Shown one piece after another: positions 8,079 to 29,008 of a DNA stretch of 29,599 nt; position 1 is the stretch's first letter, and each line of letters opens with the position of its first letter. Source of the DNA: a virus. The position numbers and the translations under genes are program-made. Where the stretch lies: positions 2,618-32,216 of IMG/VR virus record IMGVR_UViG_3300029448_000147. One strand, written 5' to 3'. The notes beneath the pieces are model-generated. The model did not search any database. It was not told the DNA's origin and saw nothing but the letters and a program-made list of their open reading frames with translations.

Positions 8079-9194
8079 ATGGCAGACGACAAGAAAAAGC
8101 AAATCAATCTAGAAAAAGCAACTAGAATCATAGAAGAGACTTGTGATCCTGAAATCATCGAGGATGATGATTTACTCACCGAAGACGAAAAGTATATAAG
8201 AGAGTCTGCATGGCTATTATTACAAGAGCTAGAAGGTGGAGGAGATGACGAGGATGAGGATGAAGAAGAGGATGAAGATTCTGAAGAAAGTTCAGACGAT
8301 TCCTCCGATACGTCATCAACTACAACCGAATCAGGCTCAGAAACATCTACCATATCAGATATAGTTGCTGAACAGGGTGTATCAACTGTAGGCACAGTAC
8401 TAGGTGCGGCCGGAATCATAGCAATGTCATCTGCACTATATTTTCAAGGAACAGCAGTTGTAGACAATGCAGTACCACTTTATGATGATATAAACTTTCA
8501 AGTTGAAAATATAATGGAACAAGAAGCTATGAATATGGCTATGAATATGGCTGTTGATCAACAAATACAACAAATGTCAGAACAGCCTGTAGTCGCATCT
8601 GAAGTTGATGAGTCTGAAGAAGAAGAAAAACCTAAGAAGAAAAGTTTTTTGAAAAAACTCTTTGGTGATGATGACGAAGAGGAAGAAGACGAAGATGCTG
8701 AAGACGATGAGGAAGAAGATACAGAGGATGAATCTGAAGAGGGAGAAAAAGAAGAGAAGCCCAAAAAGAAAGGCTTTTTAAAGAAACTATTTAGTGGTGA
8801 AGAACAAGAAGAGGAAGAAGATACAGAGGAAGAATCTGAAGAATTTACCGAGACTAAAGAGATAAAAGAAGAAAAATCAGTCAAAAAGGAAGATTCCGAA
8901 ACAGACCGTTCACCTAGTACAGAACTTAAAGGTCAAGATTTAGATGAAGTATCCGAGTTGGTAACAGATGAGTCTTTAGAAGAGGCGGGTGTATCAAGAG
9001 ATGAGTTCAACAAGGCACTACTCAGTTTTATTAAACAAGGAAATGAAAATCCTTTTCAGGAACCAGAAATTATGCGAGAGACTACAACAATCAATGAACA
9101 AATAGAACAAATAGAACAAATTGATTTGAGAGATACATTTGGACCAGGTTCACCTGGACATATCTACGAAGAAAGCGAGGCGACACCGATATGA
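8079..9194 (+). CDS. Extremely acidic membrane-anchored protein with two KPKKKxFLKKLF repeats
   Basis: I do not recognise a family. The 371-residue protein has a helical N-terminal part (1-52), an Asp/Glu/Ser tract (55-90), a hydrophobic segment (about 100-123) that could cross a membrane, a Met/Gln-rich segment, then a block in which two copies of the basic amphipathic motif KPKKK[S/G]FLKKLF (184-195 and 227-238) are each followed by long Asp/Glu runs. The C-terminal part (280-371) is normal in composition and predicted helical, with LEE before Ala at 300-303, a potential gp21 cleavage site. Alternating strong positive and negative blocks suggest binding to membrane, to nucleic acid, or to itself. 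It is followed by a 63-residue membrane gene overlapping at ATGA. Late-type promoter upstream. GAGGTG serves as ribosome site. Confidence 0.75.
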   Translation: MADDKKKQINLEKATRIIEETCDPEIIEDDDLLTEDEKYIRESAWLLLQELEGGGDDEDEDEEEDEDSEESSDDSSDTSSTTTESGSETSTISDIVAEQGVSTVGTVLGAAGIIAMSSALYFQGTAVVDNAVPLYDDINFQVENIMEQEAMNMAMNMAVDQQIQQMSEQPVVASEVDESEEEEKPKKKSFLKKLFGDDDEEEEDEDAEDDEEEDTEDESEEGEKEEKPKKKGFLKKLFSGEEQEEEEDTEEESEEFTETKEIKEEKSVKKEDSETDRSPSTELKGQDLDEVSELVTDESLEEAGVSRDEFNKALLSFIKQGNENPFQEPEIMRETTTINEQIEQIEQIDLRDTFGPGSPGHIYEESEATPI

Positions 9195-9382
9195 TTAAAG
9201 CACTTTTGGAATTAGATTGGAGTTCACTTGACCAAGGCCAGCTAATAAACTTTGGAGTTGCTTTATTGGGTATTGGTGCAACTCTTACAATGCTTATACC
9301 ACCCGACTCTAGACTAGGTAAAATTATAGCGGCCATAAATGAATCTTTATCTTTTTGGAAAAAACTTAAAGGTAAAAAATAA
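9191..9382 (+). CDS. Small membrane protein, 63 aa
   Basis: One hydrophobic helix (about 19-37, rich in Gly, Leu and Ala) is followed by a short amphipathic helix and a basic tail ending SFWKKLKGKK. Start and previous stop overlap as ATGA, so translation is probably coupled to the acidic protein. The tail resembles the SFLKKLF motif repeated in that neighbour, suggesting that the two act together. The size and one membrane helix would also fit a holin or antiholin, but no lysozyme gene is adjacent. Function unknown. Confidence 0.7.
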   Translation: MIKALLELDWSSLDQGQLINFGVALLGIGATLTMLIPPDSRLGKIIAAINESLSFWKKLKGKK

Positions 9383-9402: not shown

Positions 9403-10092
9403 ATGAAAAAATTACTTATTACTCTACTTATCACAGCAACTTCTGCTCATGGTGCCATTATACTTAATGATGCATCATTTAATTCACAATCGCAACAATG
9501 GGTTTATGACATAACTGCTTCTTTTGAAGATGATAAATTTGTTGAAGGTTGGCCAAACCCTGAGTATACTTCGTACTATGAAACATTTACTATTTCATCT
9601 ACAGAAGGCGGAGATTATATATTTGATAATTATGGCAGTAATCTTTCAAAAGATGGTAATCCAATTTATGATACTCAGCTTTTAATATATGAGACAATGC
9701 CAACAAATATATTATTTCACGCACCTTGGGCGTTTCTTAATAAGGAGGGTGATGGTTTTGGGCCAGGCACCGATAAAACTCTTGATGACTTAAATTCAAC
9801 ACGAGAATTGCTAGTAGATATTAACGGAAATCCTATTGAGCCAATTATTGATGTATCACCTACCGGATTCCAAACTGGTGCCTTTTACGGAACAATCACT
9901 CTTGAGGCAGATACAGAATATATAGTAGCTATTTCATCTTTTGAAGGTGGATATGGTTCGGTTGATTTTATGGCAATGGGTGATAGTCAACTAAATATTA
10001 ATAATACTATACCAGAGCCTGCTACGGTTGGTCTTCTTGGTGTTGGTGCTATGGCTCTTTCTATCGTCAGAAGAAGATCAAACCAGACCTAA
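9403..10092 (+). CDS. Secreted protein with PEP-CTERM sorting signal
   Basis: A 229-residue exported protein. Residues 1-17 form a signal peptide (MKKLLITLLITATSAHG), with likely cleavage near 17/18. The mature body (18-198) is acidic and rich in Tyr, Thr, Gly and Asn, looks like beta structure, and lacks cysteine. The C terminus has the full PEP-CTERM layout: IPEP (203-206), a hydrophobic helix with LLGVGAMALS (211-220) and a basic RRR end (223-225). In bacteria this tail is cut by exosortase (EpsH/XrtA family) and the protein goes to the cell surface, often with exopolysaccharide. AGGAG precedes the ATG by 7 bases. It ends a three-gene block with two membrane proteins. A role on the host surface during infection is inferred; no exosortase gene is in the window. 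Confidence 0.8.
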   Translation: MKKLLITLLITATSAHGAIILNDASFNSQSQQWVYDITASFEDDKFVEGWPNPEYTSYYETFTISSTEGGDYIFDNYGSNLSKDGNPIYDTQLLIYETMPTNILFHAPWAFLNKEGDGFGPGTDKTLDDLNSTRELLVDINGNPIEPIIDVSPTGFQTGAFYGTITLEADTEYIVAISSFEGGYGSVDFMAMGDSQLNINNTIPEPATVGLLGVGAMALSIVRRRSNQT

Positions 10093-10112: not shown

Positions 10113-10184
10113 AGTAACAAAGATAGTTATGGTTGATACAAAATCCTTCTAAGGAAAGTAAATACCATAACTATCTTACTTACT
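10113..10184 (+). other. Long stem-loop just before a ribosome binding site
   Basis: Bases 10120-10133 and 10164-10177 are perfect 14-base inverted arms (AAGATAGTTATGGT with its complement). Outside a 2x2 internal loop, AGTAA (10113-10117) pairs with TTACT (10180-10184), giving 19 pairs in all. The 30-base loop holds a small CCTT/AAGG hairpin. There is no T-tract, so it is not a typical terminator. The structure ends one base before the AGGAG of the gene at 10196. CCTAAATA (10088-10095), a possible late promoter, lies upstream, so the stem would be in the leader RNA. Confidence 0.7.
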
Positions 10185-16158: not shown

Positions 16159-18753
16159 ATGTACAGAAACATTTCATACGTCCAATCAAAAGACAAACGC
16201 TCGGCTTTTATTGATATTTGGACCTGGGACGAATCGGGTAATAGAATTCATAAAAGAGTTCCACATAAGTCATTCGTAACCTATGAAGTTGATTATAAAA
16301 CTGACTTGCAAAGTATTTATGGTACCTATCTGAAACGTAAGTTCTTTGAGACAACCTCTTCCAGGTATCAATGGATAAAAGATCATCCAGAGAAAAAGAT
16401 ATACGAGTCTTCAATTCCCGAATTTGAGTATCTAAATTCTCATTATTCAGATACATATCAAGAGCCAGACTTTGCTAAACATGATTTGAGAGTTCATTAC
16501 ATCGACATCGAGATTGCGATTGAAGATGAGTTTCCAGAAACAGATAAGGTGGACTATCCTATCAATCTTATTACTGTCTATGATAGTGACCATAGTAAAT
16601 ATTTCACATGGGCGTTAGGTGACTGTAAAGCACATAGAGATGACATTCAGTTATTCACATTTGATAGTGAAGTAAAACTACTTAATCACTATCTTAGTTG
16701 GCACGGAAGAAACTATCCTGATGTAATCACAACATGGAACGGAAAGTTGTTCGACATACCTTATATGTGTGGTCGAATCAAACGAGTTCTAGGCGAAGAT
16801 GCTATGAAGAGTATGTCACCTGTCAATCGTGTAAAGCAACATAAAGACCGAGTAACAGGTGAGCCTCTTTTCGTTATAGACGGTATCACAAACTGGGATT
16901 ATTATATTTTATATAAGAATAAGTTTCTTAAGAAGTCAAAAGGCTCTTATAGTTTAGGTAATGTAGGTGACTATGTTCTAGGTATCAGCAAGATCGAGTA
17001 TGAAGGTTCTATGAAAGACCTATACAAAAAAGACTTTCAGAAGTTTTTTGAGTATAACATACGAGATGTAGAGATACTTGTTCTATTGGAAGAAAAAGAG
17101 CAACTACTAAAATTATCTAGAAGTATCTGTAACATGTCACTTGCACCTTATGAAAAGATATATGCGTCTATACCTTATATCATCAACTGTCTGTCTTTAT
17201 ATACATACAATACTACAGGTAAGATTTTTCCAAAAGTAACCCAGTCTGTAAAAGATTCACATAGATTTGAAGGTGCCTTCGTGTTTCCCACAGTTCCTGG
17301 CTTCTTTAAGAATGGTGTTGCTGTTATTGACTTGAACTCTCTGTATCCTAATACACTGATTGCAGGCAATATGTCACCAGAAACAAAAGTAGGTACATAC
17401 GATAAGATTAGTGATAATGAGTATTCAGTACACACAACTAAAGGTGTTACAAAGCATTTAAACAAACAACAATTTGATGCATTACTTAAGACAAAATGTA
17501 TCAATACAGATAACAAGACTCTGTTTCTAAAGCATGAAGTTAGAGAGGGTATTGTTCCTACATTCTGTAAAAAGATGTATGCCGATAGAAAGAAGTTTCA
17601 AAAGAAGATGAATGATGTCATTCGTCAAATAAACAAAACTAAAGATGAGACTGATCCTAATCCCGACATAATCAAGGAGTTAGAGAATGAAAGAGATAGA
17701 TATAACTTCATTCAGTATACCTGGAAGATATTCTTAAACTCTATTTATGGTATGTTTGGTACAGAGTTTAGTCCCATCTATGACATTGACATTGCACAAT
17801 CTATTACACTCAATGGCCAGTTTGTTATCAAAGCTATACCTGAATTTGTTGTTGAACACATGAAAGACAAATATTCAGCAGAAGGTGACATTGTGCTGTT
17901 CGGTGATACAGACTCTATCGGTATCGACTATGAATCCGCTGTTACTAAGTATTGTAGTGAAAATCAGAAAGATATTAATGATCTTTCTAGACATGATATT
18001 AGAATGATAACAAAAGACCTTGATGAGTTTGTTAACAAAGACATCAACGAACATTGTGCTAAAATCGTAAACGAAAGATTCAATACAACACAAGGTGACA
18101 ACATTGCATTCTCACGAGAGAAGTTTTGTATGGAAGCCATGTTCTTTTCTAAGAAACACTATATATTACATATTGTAGATAAAGATGGTCACAAAACAGA
18201 TGAGTTTGATTATAAAGGTGTGGATATAGCTAAGAACGAGTTAGCACCCGTTGTAAAAACTTTTCTCAAATCTATCTTCGAGAAAATATGTCGTGAGAGA
18301 TGGAGTCAAGATAGATTCAATCAAGAACTTGAACAAGTATGGAATGAGTATAAGAATTTACCCTTTGAGGAGATTAAGAGAAACACCGGTTGGAACACTA
18401 ACAAAAAGTCAACTGGCTTCTTAAAGGTGGAAGCAAAAACAGGCACACATGTAAAGGCCGCACATTATTACAATCAGATGATTGAACACTTAGGTGTGAA
18501 AGGTAAATACGAAGAGTTAAAAGTAGGTGATGATGTTCAATGGTGCTACATCAATCAAGATAACCCTTTTAACATAGAAGTTATTGGTTACAAAGATATA
18601 TATCCAAAAGAGTTCAACGACATATTTCAAGTAGATTATAATCTAAAGTTTGAAAAAGATATTGTGAAACCTCTTCAACACTTATGTGATATTATGCATT
18701 GGATACCTTTTAATCCAAACGAACAGACTGCACAAAATATATTTGATTTGTAG
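16159..18753 (+). CDS. 43: DNA polymerase, family B (T4 gp43)
   Basis: Replicative polymerase with 3'-5' proofreading. The 864-residue protein (T4 gp43: 898) is complete. Exonuclease sites: Exo I D116-I-E118 (HYIDIEIA), Exo II N194-x3-F-D199 (WNGKLFD), Exo III Y299-x3-D303 (YNIRD). Polymerase sites: motif A DLNSLYP (391-397), motif B with K523 and NSIYG (527-531) and motif C GDTDS (582-586). All catalytic residues are present and there is no intron or split. It would work with the gp44-loaded clamp. The start has no ribosome site and sits just behind a TATAAT. The portal gene follows after 28 bases and has its own late promoter. Confidence 0.97.
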   Translation: MYRNISYVQSKDKRSAFIDIWTWDESGNRIHKRVPHKSFVTYEVDYKTDLQSIYGTYLKRKFFETTSSRYQWIKDHPEKKIYESSIPEFEYLNSHYSDTYQEPDFAKHDLRVHYIDIEIAIEDEFPETDKVDYPINLITVYDSDHSKYFTWALGDCKAHRDDIQLFTFDSEVKLLNHYLSWHGRNYPDVITTWNGKLFDIPYMCGRIKRVLGEDAMKSMSPVNRVKQHKDRVTGEPLFVIDGITNWDYYILYKNKFLKKSKGSYSLGNVGDYVLGISKIEYEGSMKDLYKKDFQKFFEYNIRDVEILVLLEEKEQLLKLSRSICNMSLAPYEKIYASIPYIINCLSLYTYNTTGKIFPKVTQSVKDSHRFEGAFVFPTVPGFFKNGVAVIDLNSLYPNTLIAGNMSPETKVGTYDKISDNEYSVHTTKGVTKHLNKQQFDALLKTKCINTDNKTLFLKHEVREGIVPTFCKKMYADRKKFQKKMNDVIRQINKTKDETDPNPDIIKELENERDRYNFIQYTWKIFLNSIYGMFGTEFSPIYDIDIAQSITLNGQFVIKAIPEFVVEHMKDKYSAEGDIVLFGDTDSIGIDYESAVTKYCSENQKDINDLSRHDIRMITKDLDEFVNKDINEHCAKIVNERFNTTQGDNIAFSREKFCMEAMFFSKKHYILHIVDKDGHKTDEFDYKGVDIAKNELAPVVKTFLKSIFEKICRERWSQDRFNQELEQVWNEYKNLPFEEIKRNTGWNTNKKSTGFLKVEAKTGTHVKAAHYYNQMIEHLGVKGKYEELKVGDDVQWCYINQDNPFNIEVIGYKDIYPKEFNDIFQVDYNLKFEKDIVKPLQHLCDIMHWIPFNPNEQTAQNIFDL

Positions 18754-22326: not shown

Positions 22327-23183
22327 TGAAAGAGATTATTGAACAGTTTGTAAGCAAACTGAACGAAGATGGAATCCTTTCCGAGGACCAAATAAAAGAG
22401 TTTGAAAGCTTTGGTTCTCAAATTCAAGCAACAATACAAGAAAAAGTAGAAGCTGAGAAGGAAAAAGCTCTTTCAGAAATCAAGAAAGAAGCGGAAGTTA
22501 AGATTTCTGAGTCAGAAGCACATCATGCCGAAGAACTTAAAAAAATCGAAGAAACTTTTGATTCAGTTGTTGAAAAGATGAATGAAGTTAAGGCTAAAGA
22601 GATTAAGCTTGCACTTTATAACTATCGAAACAATGAAACATTAACTTTCAAAGAAGAGAAGGTTGTGGAAGGAATCGACAAATACTTATCAACTGTCGTT
22701 GAAGAGCATCTTCCAGAACAACCAGTTGTTGATTATGCTAAACTCGATAGACTAGAAAAGACTTTTGAATCAATGCGTGATACCCTCCTTATCAGCAGTG
22801 ACGAAGTACAGTCCAAGGTCGATAGCATTCTTGAAGATGTTCAAGAAGAATTGGTACAGAAGTCTGATATGCTTAATGAAGCTATTAAGAGAAACATTGA
22901 GTATAAATCACAGATTGATCACATTGAAGCAAAAAATACATTATCTGAAAAAGTTTCTGATCTTCCAGAATTTGAAAGAAGAAAACTTGAGAAAGTATTC
23001 AAAGAATCTACTGTGGACGAGATTAATGAATCGTTTGAGGCGGAACTTGAAAAAATTCAATCAGAAGAATTTGAAGGAGAAGAAACCGAAACTGCTACGA
23101 TTGTAAAAGAGGAAGTAGTGCAAGAGCAGAGCGAACTTGATATGTACGCTGAACTTGCCGAAAGATTTCTTCCAAAGAAATAA
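22326..23183 (+). CDS. 22: Prohead core scaffold protein (T4 gp22)
   Basis: Main component of the internal scaffold on which gp23 assembles, later destroyed by gp21. The 285-residue protein (T4: 269) is almost entirely helical and charged, with a coiled coil at about 30-90 (Glu/Lys-rich) and another around 150-210. The C-terminal part has the gp22-type segment LPEFERRKLEKVF, followed by an acidic stretch (EEFEGEETE) and a helical end DMYAELAERFLPKK. Its ATG overlaps the stop of the 46-residue gene (TAATG), with AGGAGG upstream. Sequence identity in the family is low; the call rests on composition, motif and position between genes 21 and 23. Confidence 0.88.
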   Translation: MKEIIEQFVSKLNEDGILSEDQIKEFESFGSQIQATIQEKVEAEKEKALSEIKKEAEVKISESEAHHAEELKKIEETFDSVVEKMNEVKAKEIKLALYNYRNNETLTFKEEKVVEGIDKYLSTVVEEHLPEQPVVDYAKLDRLEKTFESMRDTLLISSDEVQSKVDSILEDVQEELVQKSDMLNEAIKRNIEYKSQIDHIEAKNTLSEKVSDLPEFERRKLEKVFKESTVDEINESFEAELEKIQSEEFEGEETETATIVKEEVVQEQSELDMYAELAERFLPKK

Positions 23184-23213
23184 TTTTAAAAAACAAACAA
23201 GGAGAAACTAACT

Positions 23214-24599
23214 ATGAAAACAGTATCATATCTATCCAAAGAAGAACTGTTGAAAAAGTGGGAGCCTGTTCTCGATGCTGGTGACGGTATCGCTAACGAA
23301 AGCGTCCGCTTGACAACTGCTCAAGTTTTGGAAAACACTCAGTCTGACTCTACACCTGGTTCGCTAGTTGCAGAAGCACAGACTACAACGAATGTTGCTG
23401 GGTTTACTCAAAACTCAACAGCTATCGGAGCTAACGATGTTCGTTGGCCAGGGATTGTTATCCCAACTGTTCGCAGAATCTTTCCTGAGTTGATGGCTCA
23501 TGAACTATTCGGTGTACAACCAATGAGTTCTTCGCTTGGTTATGCGTATGCAATCCGAGCCAAGTACGACACAGGCTCTAAGTTCTCAGCAGGTGCTTCG
23601 GCTGACAATACTGAGCTTGGATATAACACAATGAAGTCTGAGTTTACGGGTACTTCAGGTTCTGTTATTGGAACATCACTATCAGCAAACGCTAATATGC
23701 AAGCATATGCAGGCGTAAGTGTTGCTATTTCAGCATCTAACGCTGACTTTATCGATGGCTTGGGTGCTTTAGTACAGACTGCTGAAGGTGCCGAAGTAAA
23801 CGGAAGTATGCCAATGGCGAAAATTGACCTTGTAAAAGGTGCGGTTGAAGCCAAGTCTCGCAAGTTGGCGGCCAACTGGTCACCAGAACTTGCTGAAGAC
23901 CTTGCAAATCAGCATGGTGTTGATGTTGACGCTGAAATGACTAACATTTTGACTTATGAAGTTCAAGGTGCTATCGACAGACAGCTCGTAACAACAGCAG
24001 TTAAAAATGCAATCAATGACGGATATACATCTACTTTCACTCCTGCGAGTGCGGATGGACGTAACCAAGTTGAGCGTATCGGTGCATTACTTACACAAGT
24101 AATCATTAAATCTAACGAAATCGCTACCAACACAAGACGAGGAGCGGCGAACTTCGCTATTGCTTCACCTAGAGTTGCAGGCGTTATCGAAAGATTAAGC
24201 ACAGCTCCAACCGTAAATGGTTCTGACCTACCGGCAGTTCCACAGGCTGGAACAGGCGCACTAACTAAAGTTGGTCTTATCAATGGCGGAAAACAGTTGT
24301 TACTTCGTGACACATTCGCTACTGAGTCGGCTGGCGCAGGTTACATCCTACTAGGATATAAGGGTAACACATCACAAGACGCTGGTGTAATTTACTGTCC
24401 TTACATTCCTCTTCAGTTGATGAGAGCGGTTAAAGACTCTGATTTCTCACCTGAAATCGGTGTTCGTACTCGTTATGGTATCTTCGAAGGCTACGGCACA
24501 GATACTAACTGGGGTGCAGGTCGTTATTATCAGTTCATCAAAGTTGATGGATTGACTAGCAACATGCAGGTCAATGGTGGTAGAGTATTCACTTTCTAA
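23214..24599 (+). CDS. 23: Major capsid protein precursor (T4 gp23)
   Basis: Builds the head shell. The 461-residue precursor starts with a propeptide like T4 gp23 (KEELLKKWEPVLD; T4 KAELLNKWKPLLE). The likely gp21 cut is after E54 in SLVAE-A (T4: SFLTE-A at 65/66). Family blocks that can be read are IVIPTVRRIFPELMAHELFGVQPM, here given as IVIPTVRRIFPELMAHELFG, then VEAKSRKLAANWSPELAEDL, ANFAIASPRVAGVI and GYKGNTSQDAGVIYCPYIPL, and the end region GVRTRYGIFEGYG. Codons look more GC-rich than in neighbours, as expected for a very highly expressed gene. AAGGAG lies before the ATG; a strong terminator follows. The shorter length (T4: 521) is normal for marine relatives. Confidence 0.97.
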   Translation: MKTVSYLSKEELLKKWEPVLDAGDGIANESVRLTTAQVLENTQSDSTPGSLVAEAQTTTNVAGFTQNSTAIGANDVRWPGIVIPTVRRIFPELMAHELFGVQPMSSSLGYAYAIRAKYDTGSKFSAGASADNTELGYNTMKSEFTGTSGSVIGTSLSANANMQAYAGVSVAISASNADFIDGLGALVQTAEGAEVNGSMPMAKIDLVKGAVEAKSRKLAANWSPELAEDLANQHGVDVDAEMTNILTYEVQGAIDRQLVTTAVKNAINDGYTSTFTPASADGRNQVERIGALLTQVIIKSNEIATNTRRGAANFAIASPRVAGVIERLSTAPTVNGSDLPAVPQAGTGALTKVGLINGGKQLLLRDTFATESAGAGYILLGYKGNTSQDAGVIYCPYIPLQLMRAVKDSDFSPEIGVRTRYGIFEGYGTDTNWGAGRYYQFIKVDGLTSNMQVNGGRVFTF

Positions 24600-25349: not shown

Positions 25350-26156
25350 ATGAGTGAAAGAGTATTATTAGCAGGTCCTTTTTTGGGAGAGTTAGGTTGG
25401 GAATTATTTTGTTGGCAAGGTTATGTCCGTGCTAAATCCAAAGACTTTGATAGAACAATAGTTATAAGTAGACCTCTTAACAAGTATCTATATCAAGACT
25501 TTGCTGAAGTTGTTGAGTTTGATCCAGAAAGCAACCTAACGGAAGCATGGTGGTGTAATAACGCAAAATCACCTAATGAACTTATTAAGAAAATAAAAGA
25601 AGAAAAGGGTGTTACTGCAATACTATTTGGTGATTTTGATATAGGCTATAGATGTCAGACAGACGGTCTACACACCTTATCTGATAAGTTTAAAGAGCAA
25701 GTATTTCATAAATATGGTAATTTATCTTCTTCACCATTTTCTGTTGATGTTGTAATACATGCTAGAAACAAACAAACAGGTGACTTTAGAAACTGGAGCA
25801 AAGAGAAATGGCAACAGTTAATAGACAGGTTAAATGAAGAACATGATTTACACATAGCATGTATTGGTGGTCCTGATTCTTTCCATTTAGATAACACCGA
25901 AGATATGAGAATGATACAGATGGATAAATTAACAAGTGTTTTACACTCATCAAATATGATTGTCGGTCCTAGTTCAGGTCCTTTACATTTAGCAAGCTTA
26001 TGTGGTACAAAACAAATAGTTTGGAGTACAGAACATAATAGAAAAAGATATGAGAACGACTGGAATCCTTTTGATAGTGAGGTAAGATTTTATTCAGAAG
26101 AGGGGTGGGATCCTAATGTTGAATCTATTTTTAACATTATATCTAACGAGTTATGA
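25350..26156 (+). CDS. GT-B glycosyltransferase, GT9 (heptosyltransferase)-like
   Basis: I chose ATG 25350 (MSERVLLAGPFLGELGWELF), two bases after the previous stop; the longer frame from 25311 only runs through the end of the upstream gene. In the 268-residue protein the GxLGWEL loop (13-19) begins the acceptor domain, and the C-terminal half has VGPSSGPLHLASLCGT (205-220), very like the NDSGPxHLAxAxGxP donor site of ADP-heptose:LPS heptosyltransferases (GT9). It is shorter than cellular GT9 enzymes (~320-350). A role in adding sugars to LPS or a virion glycan is plausible. Confidence 0.75.
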   Translation: MSERVLLAGPFLGELGWELFCWQGYVRAKSKDFDRTIVISRPLNKYLYQDFAEVVEFDPESNLTEAWWCNNAKSPNELIKKIKEEKGVTAILFGDFDIGYRCQTDGLHTLSDKFKEQVFHKYGNLSSSPFSVDVVIHARNKQTGDFRNWSKEKWQQLIDRLNEEHDLHIACIGGPDSFHLDNTEDMRMIQMDKLTSVLHSSNMIVGPSSGPLHLASLCGTKQIVWSTEHNRKRYENDWNPFDSEVRFYSEEGWDPNVESIFNIISNEL

Positions 26157-26989
26157 AGATATTTTTCGTAGGTGTTTTTACAGAGGGTTCAACAAATGTT
26201 TCACAAAGAGACAGTCTACTAAAATTAGGTCATGAAGTTATAGAGTTTCCTTACAGGTCCTTTAACGATCCTAATGAAGAACTTATGAAAATCTTTGATA
26301 AGAGTATTGACATACTTTTGATAGCAAAAGGTAACTTTATAAGTTCAGATGTAATTAGCTTATTTAAATATAGAAATGAATGCAAGTTTCACTATTGGTT
26401 TATGGATCCAATGATGAGTTTTTCCCAAGAAATGCTAGAAAAGACATTAGTATCAGATAGAGCCTTTTTTGACAAAAAGAATGTATTAGAACTTGCACTT
26501 AAATATCACAAAAACTGTAGTTATTTATGTGAAGGATATGACGAGACTGTAGACAAAGTACAAGATATAGATTATAAATATGATATATCTTTTATAGGAA
26601 ATGTGTATAATAATAGAGAAGATATACTAAATAAAATAGATAATATTAAAGTTATAAACAATGCGTATGGTGAAGAACACTCAAAAGAAGTTGGTAAATC
26701 CAAGATAAACTTAAACATATGTACCAACAACGGTGCATCTGATAGAGTTTATAAGATTTTAGCGGCCGGTGGATTTTTACTCACGGATGATTGGGAAGGT
26801 AGAGAATTGACAGGTTTAAAAGATGGCATAGATTTAGTTGTTTATAAAAATATAAAAGACTTAAAATCTAAAATTAAGTTCTATCTTAAGTATAATTGGG
26901 AAAGAGAACAAATAGCCAGAAACGGACTAAGGTCTGTTAAAAGACTAACCAGAGAATCCTGGGCGAGAGGTGTAGTAATTGAAAAATAA
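26153..26989 (+). CDS. GT-B glycosyltransferase, CgeB-like
   Basis: The start overlaps the previous stop as ATGA. The 278-residue protein has a first Rossmann strand MKIFFVGVFTEGS, a conserved YWFMDP (81-86), DISFIGNVYNNRE (144-156), then SDRVYKILAAGGFLLTDD (196-213) and a helix with REQIARNGLRSV. The latter parts match the CgeB/Glyco_trans_1_2 family (R.yEilAcGgfllt...; ...IA.nG...v...), which places R198 and the GG loop at the donor site. It probably extends the same glycan as its neighbours. The next gene begins inside its last 11 bases. Confidence 0.78.
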   Translation: MKIFFVGVFTEGSTNVSQRDSLLKLGHEVIEFPYRSFNDPNEELMKIFDKSIDILLIAKGNFISSDVISLFKYRNECKFHYWFMDPMMSFSQEMLEKTLVSDRAFFDKKNVLELALKYHKNCSYLCEGYDETVDKVQDIDYKYDISFIGNVYNNREDILNKIDNIKVINNAYGEEHSKEVGKSKINLNICTNNGASDRVYKILAAGGFLLTDDWEGRELTGLKDGIDLVVYKNIKDLKSKIKFYLKYNWEREQIARNGLRSVKRLTRESWARGVVIEK

Positions 26990-27587
26990 TCCTTATAATG
27001 TAGTTAGAATGTTTGAAGAGGAGATAGCTAGATATACTGGTTCACCTTACGCTGTTTCTGTAGATAGTTGCACTAACGCAACTTTTTTGTGTTGTAAGTA
27101 TCTAAATGTAAAAGAAGTTATAATGCCTAAAAGAACATACTTATCTATTCCCATGTCTGTAATTCATGCAGGTGGTACTGTTAAGTTTAGGGATATAGAA
27201 TGGTCAGGTATCTATCGATTAGACCCTTACCCTATTTACGACTCTGCAAAGAGACTAACATCTAACATGTATATTGAAGGTTCGTATATGTGTTTATCAT
27301 TTCATATTAAGAAACTATTAGGTATAGGAAAAGGCGGTATGATCTTAACTGATAACGAAGATGCCGTAGAATGGTTTAAAAGAGCAAGATACGAAGGTAG
27401 AAGTGAAAAGTTCTATAAGAACGATGATATTGATATGCTAGGTTGGAATATGTATATGACACCTCAACAAGCATCACACGGACTCTCTTTACTTCAAAAC
27501 TATCCAGAGCATGTTGAAGACATGGGTGAAGAAAACGGATATAGAGACTTAACTGAGTTTTCCGTATTTAAAAATATGGGAGATTAG
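26979..27587 (+). CDS. DegT/DnrJ/EryC1-type aminotransferase, PLP domain only
   Basis: Family members make amino sugars from keto sugars with PLP. This protein is 202 residues, against ~370-390 usual. It contains FEEEIARYTGSPYAVSVDSC (12-31) with the phosphate-binding SCTNAT loop, D88 for the pyridine nitrogen (IYDSAKR), SFHIKKLLGIGKGGMILT (107-124) with the Schiff-base lysine at 111 or 112, and MTPQQASHGL (160-169). It then stops where the C-terminal small domain should begin. The frame is intact and tightly packed, so it is a compact form and not debris. I favour TTG 26979 because GAGAGG lies before it; ATG 27009 has no ribosome site. Confidence 0.75.
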   Translation: MKNNPYNVVRMFEEEIARYTGSPYAVSVDSCTNATFLCCKYLNVKEVIMPKRTYLSIPMSVIHAGGTVKFRDIEWSGIYRLDPYPIYDSAKRLTSNMYIEGSYMCLSFHIKKLLGIGKGGMILTDNEDAVEWFKRARYEGRSEKFYKNDDIDMLGWNMYMTPQQASHGLSLLQNYPEHVEDMGEENGYRDLTEFSVFKNMGD

Positions 27588-28280
27588 ATGCAAGTACTCG
27601 TACTAAGCTGTGGTAGAACAGGCACAAACATGCTACTTGAAATAATGAGAGGTAACTCAAGATTAGAGGCTACACCTTTTGCGGAAGACAAATACGTTTT
27701 TCAAGATTCTAGAGAACTACCTAATGGCTATCTAAGCAAGTGTGATACTGTCTATATAAATGACACAAAACAAATAGATGAATTATTTAATAAAAATCCT
27801 TTACTGAGAGTTTTATTTACAGTTAGAGATTGGCGTGACTGTGCAATGTCTAAATTTTACAGAGGTCAACCCGGTCAAGATAATCATATTATTGCGGATG
27901 ATGCCACTGTAGAAGGTTGTATAGAAGATTTAAAATGGATGGAAACAATTCATGATTATCTAACAGAAAAATACCCCAGAAACACAATTACTGTTAAAAT
28001 GGAAGATATAATACTTAATTTTGATAGAACCATAGAAAGCATTTGTGGATTCTGTGCTTTACCTTTTGAGAGAGATAAAATGATTTCGTTTACTAATCGA
28101 TATAGAAATAGTTTTAAATCTGATAGATACAAAGACATAGATAAGTCTCAAGTAGAATTATACAAGAGAATAGACACAGTTTATGAAGGATTCTTTACAG
28201 AAGATAAAAACAAAAAAGAAATAAATGAGGTCTTTGATCGAATACAACCCCTTCTATTAAAATACGGATATACGATATGA
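27588..28280 (+). CDS. Sulfotransferase-like protein
   Basis: Abuts the aminotransferase stop. The 230-residue protein has the two PAPS sites of sulfotransferases: a P-loop SCGRTGTNMLLEIM (7-20; usual SGRSGTNxL) for the 5'-phosphosulfate and LFTVRDWRDCAMSKF (76-90), where R80 and S88 correspond to the 3'-phosphate site. The C-terminal half is helical, with VKMEDIILNFDRTIESICGF, the expected E-D-L segment. It would transfer sulfate from host-made PAPS, probably to the glycan assembled by the neighbouring enzymes. Kinase or GTPase alternatives are unlikely, given the RxxxD...S motif. Confidence 0.75.
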   Translation: MQVLVLSCGRTGTNMLLEIMRGNSRLEATPFAEDKYVFQDSRELPNGYLSKCDTVYINDTKQIDELFNKNPLLRVLFTVRDWRDCAMSKFYRGQPGQDNHIIADDATVEGCIEDLKWMETIHDYLTEKYPRNTITVKMEDIILNFDRTIESICGFCALPFERDKMISFTNRYRNSFKSDRYKDIDKSQVELYKRIDTVYEGFFTEDKNKKEINEVFDRIQPLLLKYGYTI

Positions 28281-29008
28281 AATTATTAATAACAACAAGG
28301 TCTGACAAACATATAAGCGAAATGACCTCATTAACACACCCTTTCATAAAAGACTATGCCAAATGGTGTGGTGCTGACTTCTTAGAATTAGATCATATTT
28401 CAGAATGTAAACACGAAGAAGGTAAATGGCATTATAGAATCATGAAACATTACGACCTATTTAATGAATATGATAGAATATTATCACTAGATTCTGATAT
28501 TGTGATAACACCTAGATGTAAGAATATATTTGAAGAAGTTCCTTTTGAAGAGATAGGAACTGTTTATGAAGATAAAGGTAGTAGAACGCATCCTAGAAGA
28601 GCAACAATTCAAGAAGTACAAGGTCACTTTGGAGATATAGGTTGGTCGGAAGGATACATTAATACAGGTGTATTTCTTACATCAAATATACACAAAGACA
28701 TTTTCACAAAGATAGACGATAAGTTTTGGGAAGGCTGGGGATTTGACGATATTCATTTAGGATATAACATTAATAAAAACAAATTCAAAGTAAAAGAACT
28801 TGAACATAAATGGAATCACATGACAATGTTCTCAGAAGACTGGAGTGAAAATCCAAATAGATTTGATTCATATATTATACACTATGCGGGATATGGAATA
28901 TTCGACAATAGAATAGGAAATAGAATAGATCAAATAAAGTATGATTTATCCACCATAAGCCAAGCATTAACACGACAATATGAAGAAAGTCAAAAAGTAA
29001 CTAATTAG
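28277..29008 (+). CDS. GT-A glycosyltransferase (DxD type)
   Basis: The start overlaps the previous stop as ATGA. The 243-residue protein has MKLLITTRSDKH, then YDRILSLDSDIVI (65-77) whose D72-S-D74 is the metal-binding DxD, EGYINTGVFLTS for the acceptor side, FWEGWGFDDIHLGY and a final HYAGYG His that could complete the metal site. The arrangement is like GT8-type and related retaining or galactosyl enzymes. It is the last gene of the cassette. Its stop overlaps the converging membrane gene by 4 bases. Confidence 0.8.
   Translation: MKLLITTRSDKHISEMTSLTHPFIKDYAKWCGADFLELDHISECKHEEGKWHYRIMKHYDLFNEYDRILSLDSDIVITPRCKNIFEEVPFEEIGTVYEDKGSRTHPRRATIQEVQGHFGDIGWSEGYINTGVFLTSNIHKDIFTKIDDKFWEGWGFDDIHLGYNINKNKFKVKELEHKWNHMTMFSEDWSENPNRFDSYIIHYAGYGIFDNRIGNRIDQIKYDLSTISQALTRQYEESQKVTN

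Follow-up and report, generated by a model that had tools for sequence, protein, structure and literature searches.

Marine phages, among them relatives of T4, carry a locus whose product ends in the PEP-CTERM sorting tail of bacterial exosortase substrates, and the ectodomain in front of this tail appears to be exchanged from phage to phage. The example analyzed here is a protein of 229 amino acids (positions 9403-10092, + strand) encoded in a 29,599-nucleotide stretch of DNA, called the window, that corresponds to positions 2618-32216 of a 36,600-base IMG/VR virus record. We consider it highly likely that phages maintain this locus for an exosortase-type substrate. On balance, we also favor a reading in which a host exosortase sorts the product as a surface protein whose ectodomain can be exchanged and which probably serves to exclude superinfecting phages or to mask receptors. 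A preliminary description of the window had recognized the tail; what emerges beyond it, as judged from alignments, is that the ectodomain is exchanged between phages and that the locus usually includes a predicted outer-membrane barrel, which is absent from the window.

Bacterial PEP-CTERM proteins are exported and tethered by their tails, and exosortase is believed to process them (PMC1569441, PMC12188702). They stabilize the association of exopolysaccharide (EPS) with the cell surface (PMC12188702, PMC9012009), and the step by which they cross the outer membrane is unsolved (PMC1569441, PMC12188702). The phage protein resembles the substrates of the bacterial exosortase (EpsH, XrtA) system described by Haft et al. 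in 2006 (PMC1569441) in its signal-type N-terminus, variable ectodomain, PEP motif with transmembrane (TM) helix and basic C-terminus, and matches to TIGR02595 and PF07589. It differs in being phage-encoded, in occurring in only one or two copies per record, in the lack of an exosortase in the phage records, and in the exchange of ectodomains between phages. Phage are not mentioned by Haft et al. (PMC1569441), and no report of phage use of the exosortase pathway was found in the open-access full-text literature.

The window protein starts with MKKLLITLLITATSAHG followed by Ala and ends, in the translation of ORF 9403-10092, with IPEPATVGLLGVGAMALSIVRRRSNQT. Residues 1-17 (9403-9453, + strand) resemble a signal peptide in sequence, in hydropathy and in a layout common to the homologues: a Lys-Lys n-region leads into a hydrophobic core and an A-H-G↓A site, with cleavage predicted before Ala18 (AHG↓AII) and no lipobox cysteine. 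In the homologues this N-terminal layout recurs, and their cleavage sites are of the canonical A-X-A form (SAFA↓S, STYA↓S). A secretory-type signal, as claimed in the preliminary description, is thus predicted from sequence features together with their conservation. The same description had claimed a complete IPEP-hydrophobic-RRR tail, and this claim held up well. The tail (10009-10089, + strand) consists of IPEP (10009-10020), a hydrophobic helix (about 10024-10068) and RRR (10069-10077), and the three elements lie at the very end of the ORF, as in PEP-CTERM architecture. When the PEP-CTERM models were run as had been proposed, PF07589 matched residues 202-224 with 25.2 bits against a curated cut-off of 20.7 (E 1.6e-5) and TIGR02595 matched residues 203-226 with 24.2 bits against a cut-off of 16 (E 3.9e-5). 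The protein is the sole PF07589 match in the whole 36.6-kb record (28.6 bits, E 9.2e-8), and there was no match to this model in any of 14 control genomes. Two related phage contigs contain 202 ORFs of at least 90 amino acids, of which the two PEP-CTERM genes alone encode a PEP motif, hydrophobic segment and basic C-terminus in this arrangement. It arose in none of 404,000 shuffled C-termini and, when the protein's own tail was shuffled, in 4 of 200,000 trials. The control genomes and shuffles exclude a chance origin of the tail.

The window lies in a genuine T4-like phage contig, and the PEP-CTERM gene is not a stray passenger in it. The window encodes a T4-type major head protein (E 4e-73), portal (2e-89) and DNA polymerase (3e-160). 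A 74,866-base record, G001 (IMGVR_UViG_3300020440_000012), is 99.85% identical to the window record and extends it; the T4-type major head protein is found in both. The nearest isolates are distant, namely marine cyanophages with about 34% identity in the major head protein and about 29% in DNA polymerase. The T4 late-promoter motif was no more frequent than expected by chance, and none occurs at the PEP-CTERM locus. A run of glycosyltransferase-like, DegT-type aminotransferase-like and sulfotransferase-like genes adjoins the head genes (26153-29008). On the minus strand, G001 carries sugar-kinase (RfaE-like; 17852-18751), NAD-dependent epimerase (23135-24109) and cytidylyltransferase-like (24111-24554) genes; these three may make activated heptose, their names being based on sequence appearance only.

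The homologue search proposed in the preliminary description uncovered the same locus in many related phages, about 30 contigs in all: in 26 the PEP-CTERM gene is complete or almost so, and five more end within it. Once evident re-assemblies are merged by visual inspection, about 24 populations remain. One diverged relative, L003, was found by direct scan, and more loci were found by scans with the adjacent NrdA and with the barrel that lies behind the L003, L124 and L130 PEP-CTERM genes. The five contigs that stop within the ectodomain are L117, L122, L126, L155 and L218; such breaks are expected if allele diversity disrupts assembly. The locus runs in the order of an acidic low-complexity protein, a one-TM protein of about 60 amino acids, one or two PEP-CTERM proteins, and a predicted outer-membrane barrel of about 385 amino acids. 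The two membrane proteins that had been noted in the same block, both encoded ahead of the window gene, proved to be conserved partners in the related phages. The first (8079-9194, + strand) is the acidic protein, with one hydrophobic segment, a conserved C-terminus, homologues in the related loci, and no Pfam, NCBIfam or PHROG family above cut-off. The window copy ends in ATPI, as do those of L003, L117, L124, L130 and L160 among other relatives, and the length of the protein varies even between near-identical records (371 versus 377 amino acids). The second (9191-9382, + strand) is a 63-amino-acid single-TM protein with a basic C-terminus, whose start overlaps the stop of the acidic-protein gene (ATGA) and whose homologues in related phages immediately precede PEP-CTERM genes.

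TIGR02595 scored above its cut-off in 25 of 27 locus records and in none of the 14 control genomes; L168 and L181 fell below it, and several other relatives barely exceeded it (16-17 bits). Most members retain the PEP motif despite diverged helix sequences, with PES replacing PEP in L178, L180 and the second copy of L172. Tandem PEP-CTERM genes with different ectodomain types occur within single phages in L183, L124 and L172, as if two alleles had been retained. Besides the T4-like contigs, the locus is present in a non-T4 record of 141,669 bases (G110). This phage encodes a primase and a tape-measure protein along with a DNA polymerase of another type and, apart from ribonucleotide reductase genes, has little in common with G001. 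The barrel, present in most relatives, is missing from G000 and G001 as well as from the window. In its place the window has a strong hairpin (10120-10178, + strand) in the interval that separates the PEP-CTERM gene from its downstream neighbor, with a fold z-score of -6.1 and no shuffle folding as well.

Comparison of these records shows what appears to be exchange of ectodomains between phages, with the start and the tail of the gene retained on either side. Phages with flanking DNA that is 87-93% identical can have ectodomains only 25-36% identical, with homology ending near the start of the gene and resuming at or near the PEP motif. L003 and L166, which from their sequences are members of one lineage, have 93% nucleotide identity upstream and through about the first 11 nucleotides of the gene, and 88% at the PEP motif and beyond; their ectodomains are 33% identical. 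In the comparison of the window with L003, on the other hand, the ectodomains are nearly the same (96.7% nucleotide identity over codons 1-201, 96% at the amino acid level) while the locus neighbors are only 28% and 47% identical. This identity sets in shortly before the start codon and declines beyond IPEPATVG, with 20 differences in the first 630 nucleotides and 31 in the last 57; the L003 tail beyond IPEPATVG differs from that of the window and has the same architecture of PEP, helix and basic cluster. L003 thus joins a window-type ectodomain to the tail and flanks of its own lineage, which is that of L166. Further pairs follow the same pattern: the TM protein and barrel of L181 and L187 are 100% and 96% identical with ectodomains at 25%, and L178 and L188 have barrels at 93% and ectodomains at 36%, with homology returning at the tail. 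Conversely, near-identical ectodomains (96-98% at the amino acid level) are found in differing phage backgrounds, as in L174 and L190 (ectodomain 98%, barrel 75%). In L182 and L130, the segment encoding the L003 signal peptide (about 90% nucleotide identity over 70 bp) is followed by an unrelated ectodomain.

The ectodomain of the window protein (residues 18-202; 9454-10008, + strand) is predicted to be a beta-sandwich by AlphaFold2 with 20 sequences (mean pLDDT 72.5, with a weak loop at about residues 113-157; with 2 sequences, pLDDT was 36). A Foldseek search of the PDB with this model gave no match below E 0.001, and the nearest, non-significant folds were gingipain cleaved-adhesin domains, flocculins and carbohydrate-binding jelly rolls. 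The fold also matches that of one unnamed viral protein at E 3e-8. Sequence searches of the PDB with ectodomain and barrel profiles found nothing. The protein of about 385 amino acids downstream in most relatives is probably an outer-membrane barrel, and it recalls TIGR03016, a PEP-CTERM system-associated outer-membrane protein. TIGR03016 was the sole NCBIfam match of the L003 barrel (E 3.4e-5), at 23 bits against a cut-off of 90.85, and it matched none of the other 11 barrel homologues tested. Because the score is far below the cut-off and 1 of 12 members matched, membership in this family was rejected and the link is treated as a lead only; the barrel is, moreover, absent from the window and from G000/G001.

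How would such a protein reach the surface of an infected cell? In the scheme that we favor, Sec would export the phage protein, signal peptidase would remove its N-terminus, and the C-terminal helix would hold it in the inner membrane. A host exosortase would then cleave at the PEP motif and pass the ectodomain to the outer surface or to exopolysaccharide, perhaps with help from the co-encoded barrel in most relatives. The result would be a beta-sandwich displayed on the surface of the infected cell during infection by means of a host pathway. None of the 30 phage records searched, many of them fragments, contains an exosortase; processing would therefore depend on an enzyme of the host. Scans of genome contigs for a host with an alignment of the PEP-CTERM protein and with the exact tail dialect gave no matches. 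The tails of the window family may resemble those of Verrucomicrobiota-like bacteria.

Superinfection exclusion, argued from the exchange of ectodomains and the logic of surface display, is a plausible purpose, though one to which we give somewhat less than even odds. A kept signal and tag, changing cargo, and alleles common to unrelated phages suggest a determinant of specificity in competition between phages and hence superinfection exclusion or receptor masking. The likeness to phage exclusion proteins (T4 Imm and Sp, and prophage surface-modifying proteins) lies in the proposed role in the envelope against competitors; it does not extend to PHROG profiles, where no match to known superinfection-exclusion families was found at E 0.1. 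We know of no superinfection-exclusion protein described with a PEP-CTERM tag, and none turned up in the open-access full-text literature searched. The main competing explanation, which we judge possible at about half the weight of host-sorted exclusion or masking, is that the exosortase-sorted protein alters adhesion between cells or between cells and EPS (aggregation, particle attachment) and so aids local spread rather than blocking other phages. Bacterial PEP-CTERM proteins do have roles in flocs and biofilms (PMC9012009, PMC9850573, PMC12188702), and the fold of the ectodomain weakly resembles those of flocculins and cleaved adhesin domains, but aggregation alone does not readily explain why ectodomains are so often replaced under the same flanks.

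A little less probable again is a tail that is simply a C-terminal inner-membrane anchor, acting without exosortase and leaving the ectodomain in the periplasm, for example against DNA injection by incoming phage. In T4, exclusion by imm and sp takes place at the inner membrane or in the periplasm, and the PES variants and near-cut-off tails of some relatives leave room for an anchor. It is difficult to see, however, why a mere anchor would keep PEP in most members while the helix diverges and would exceed a curated model cut-off in nearly all locus records. An envelope-disrupting lysis module is improbable, even though an exported protein with a C-terminal TM segment has the topology of a unimolecular spanin and is accompanied by an adjoining small TM protein and, in relatives, by the barrel. 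The lipobox cysteine is absent from the window protein and from the site in the listed homologues, so the unimolecular spanin assignment was rejected; neither the PEP-CTERM protein nor the 63-amino-acid protein has a PHROG lysis match, and lysis proteins would have no need of swapped ectodomains. Least probable of all, and very much so, is host contamination, an assembly chimera or a chance tail. All of the sequences are metagenome assemblies and most are fragments, but the locus recurs in about 30 contigs from many samples with phage genes on its flanks, and the shuffles dispose of chance. An exact-repeat misjoin at the L003 junction is also unlikely, because the two parental sequences differ there. 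Searches of phage isolates and plasmids yielded little: tblastn with the window protein gave three weak Achromobacter phage matches (E 0.5-0.7), none to the tail; the acidic protein, barrels and another PEP-CTERM protein of the locus family gave no isolate matches; a generic tail query gave none in a search weakened by low-complexity masking; and no locus homologue was found on plasmids.

The preliminary description knew of no established role for this tail in a T4-like phage. The idea that a viral PEP-CTERM protein is a one-off is tempered by 88 PEP-CTERM-type tails found with a single narrow pattern in IMG/VR contigs (L009-L103), some of which may be host flank or contamination. These 88 proteins resemble the window protein in the tail region only, not in the ectodomain; 39 of them group together by sequence, and in many of these the tail is VPEPATLALLGVGLLGLGLVRQRRA. 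Terminase_6N scored above cut-off in 16 of the 49 such records searched, which makes further phage PEP-CTERM families likely, with the same caution about host flank or contamination in some records.

Taken with the favored scheme, the locus suggests that phages remodel the surface of the infected cell through a host sorting pathway. Rather speculatively, unrelated marine phages of the same hosts may share a pool of surface-protein alleles, each set between a secretion signal and a host-exosortase tag that both stay constant, and each paired with a phage-encoded outer-membrane barrel, as a variable exclusion (receptor-masking) coat. A tag that stays constant while its cargo varies is a natural experiment that supports the tag as a separable module, and the tail predicts exosortase in uncultured hosts. 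The predicted barrel beside the tagged protein in most relatives is a concrete candidate for the unsolved outer-membrane crossing of PEP-CTERM proteins. If the exclusion reading is correct, allele exchange between unrelated phages would reveal competition among them, which could be tested with defined alleles.
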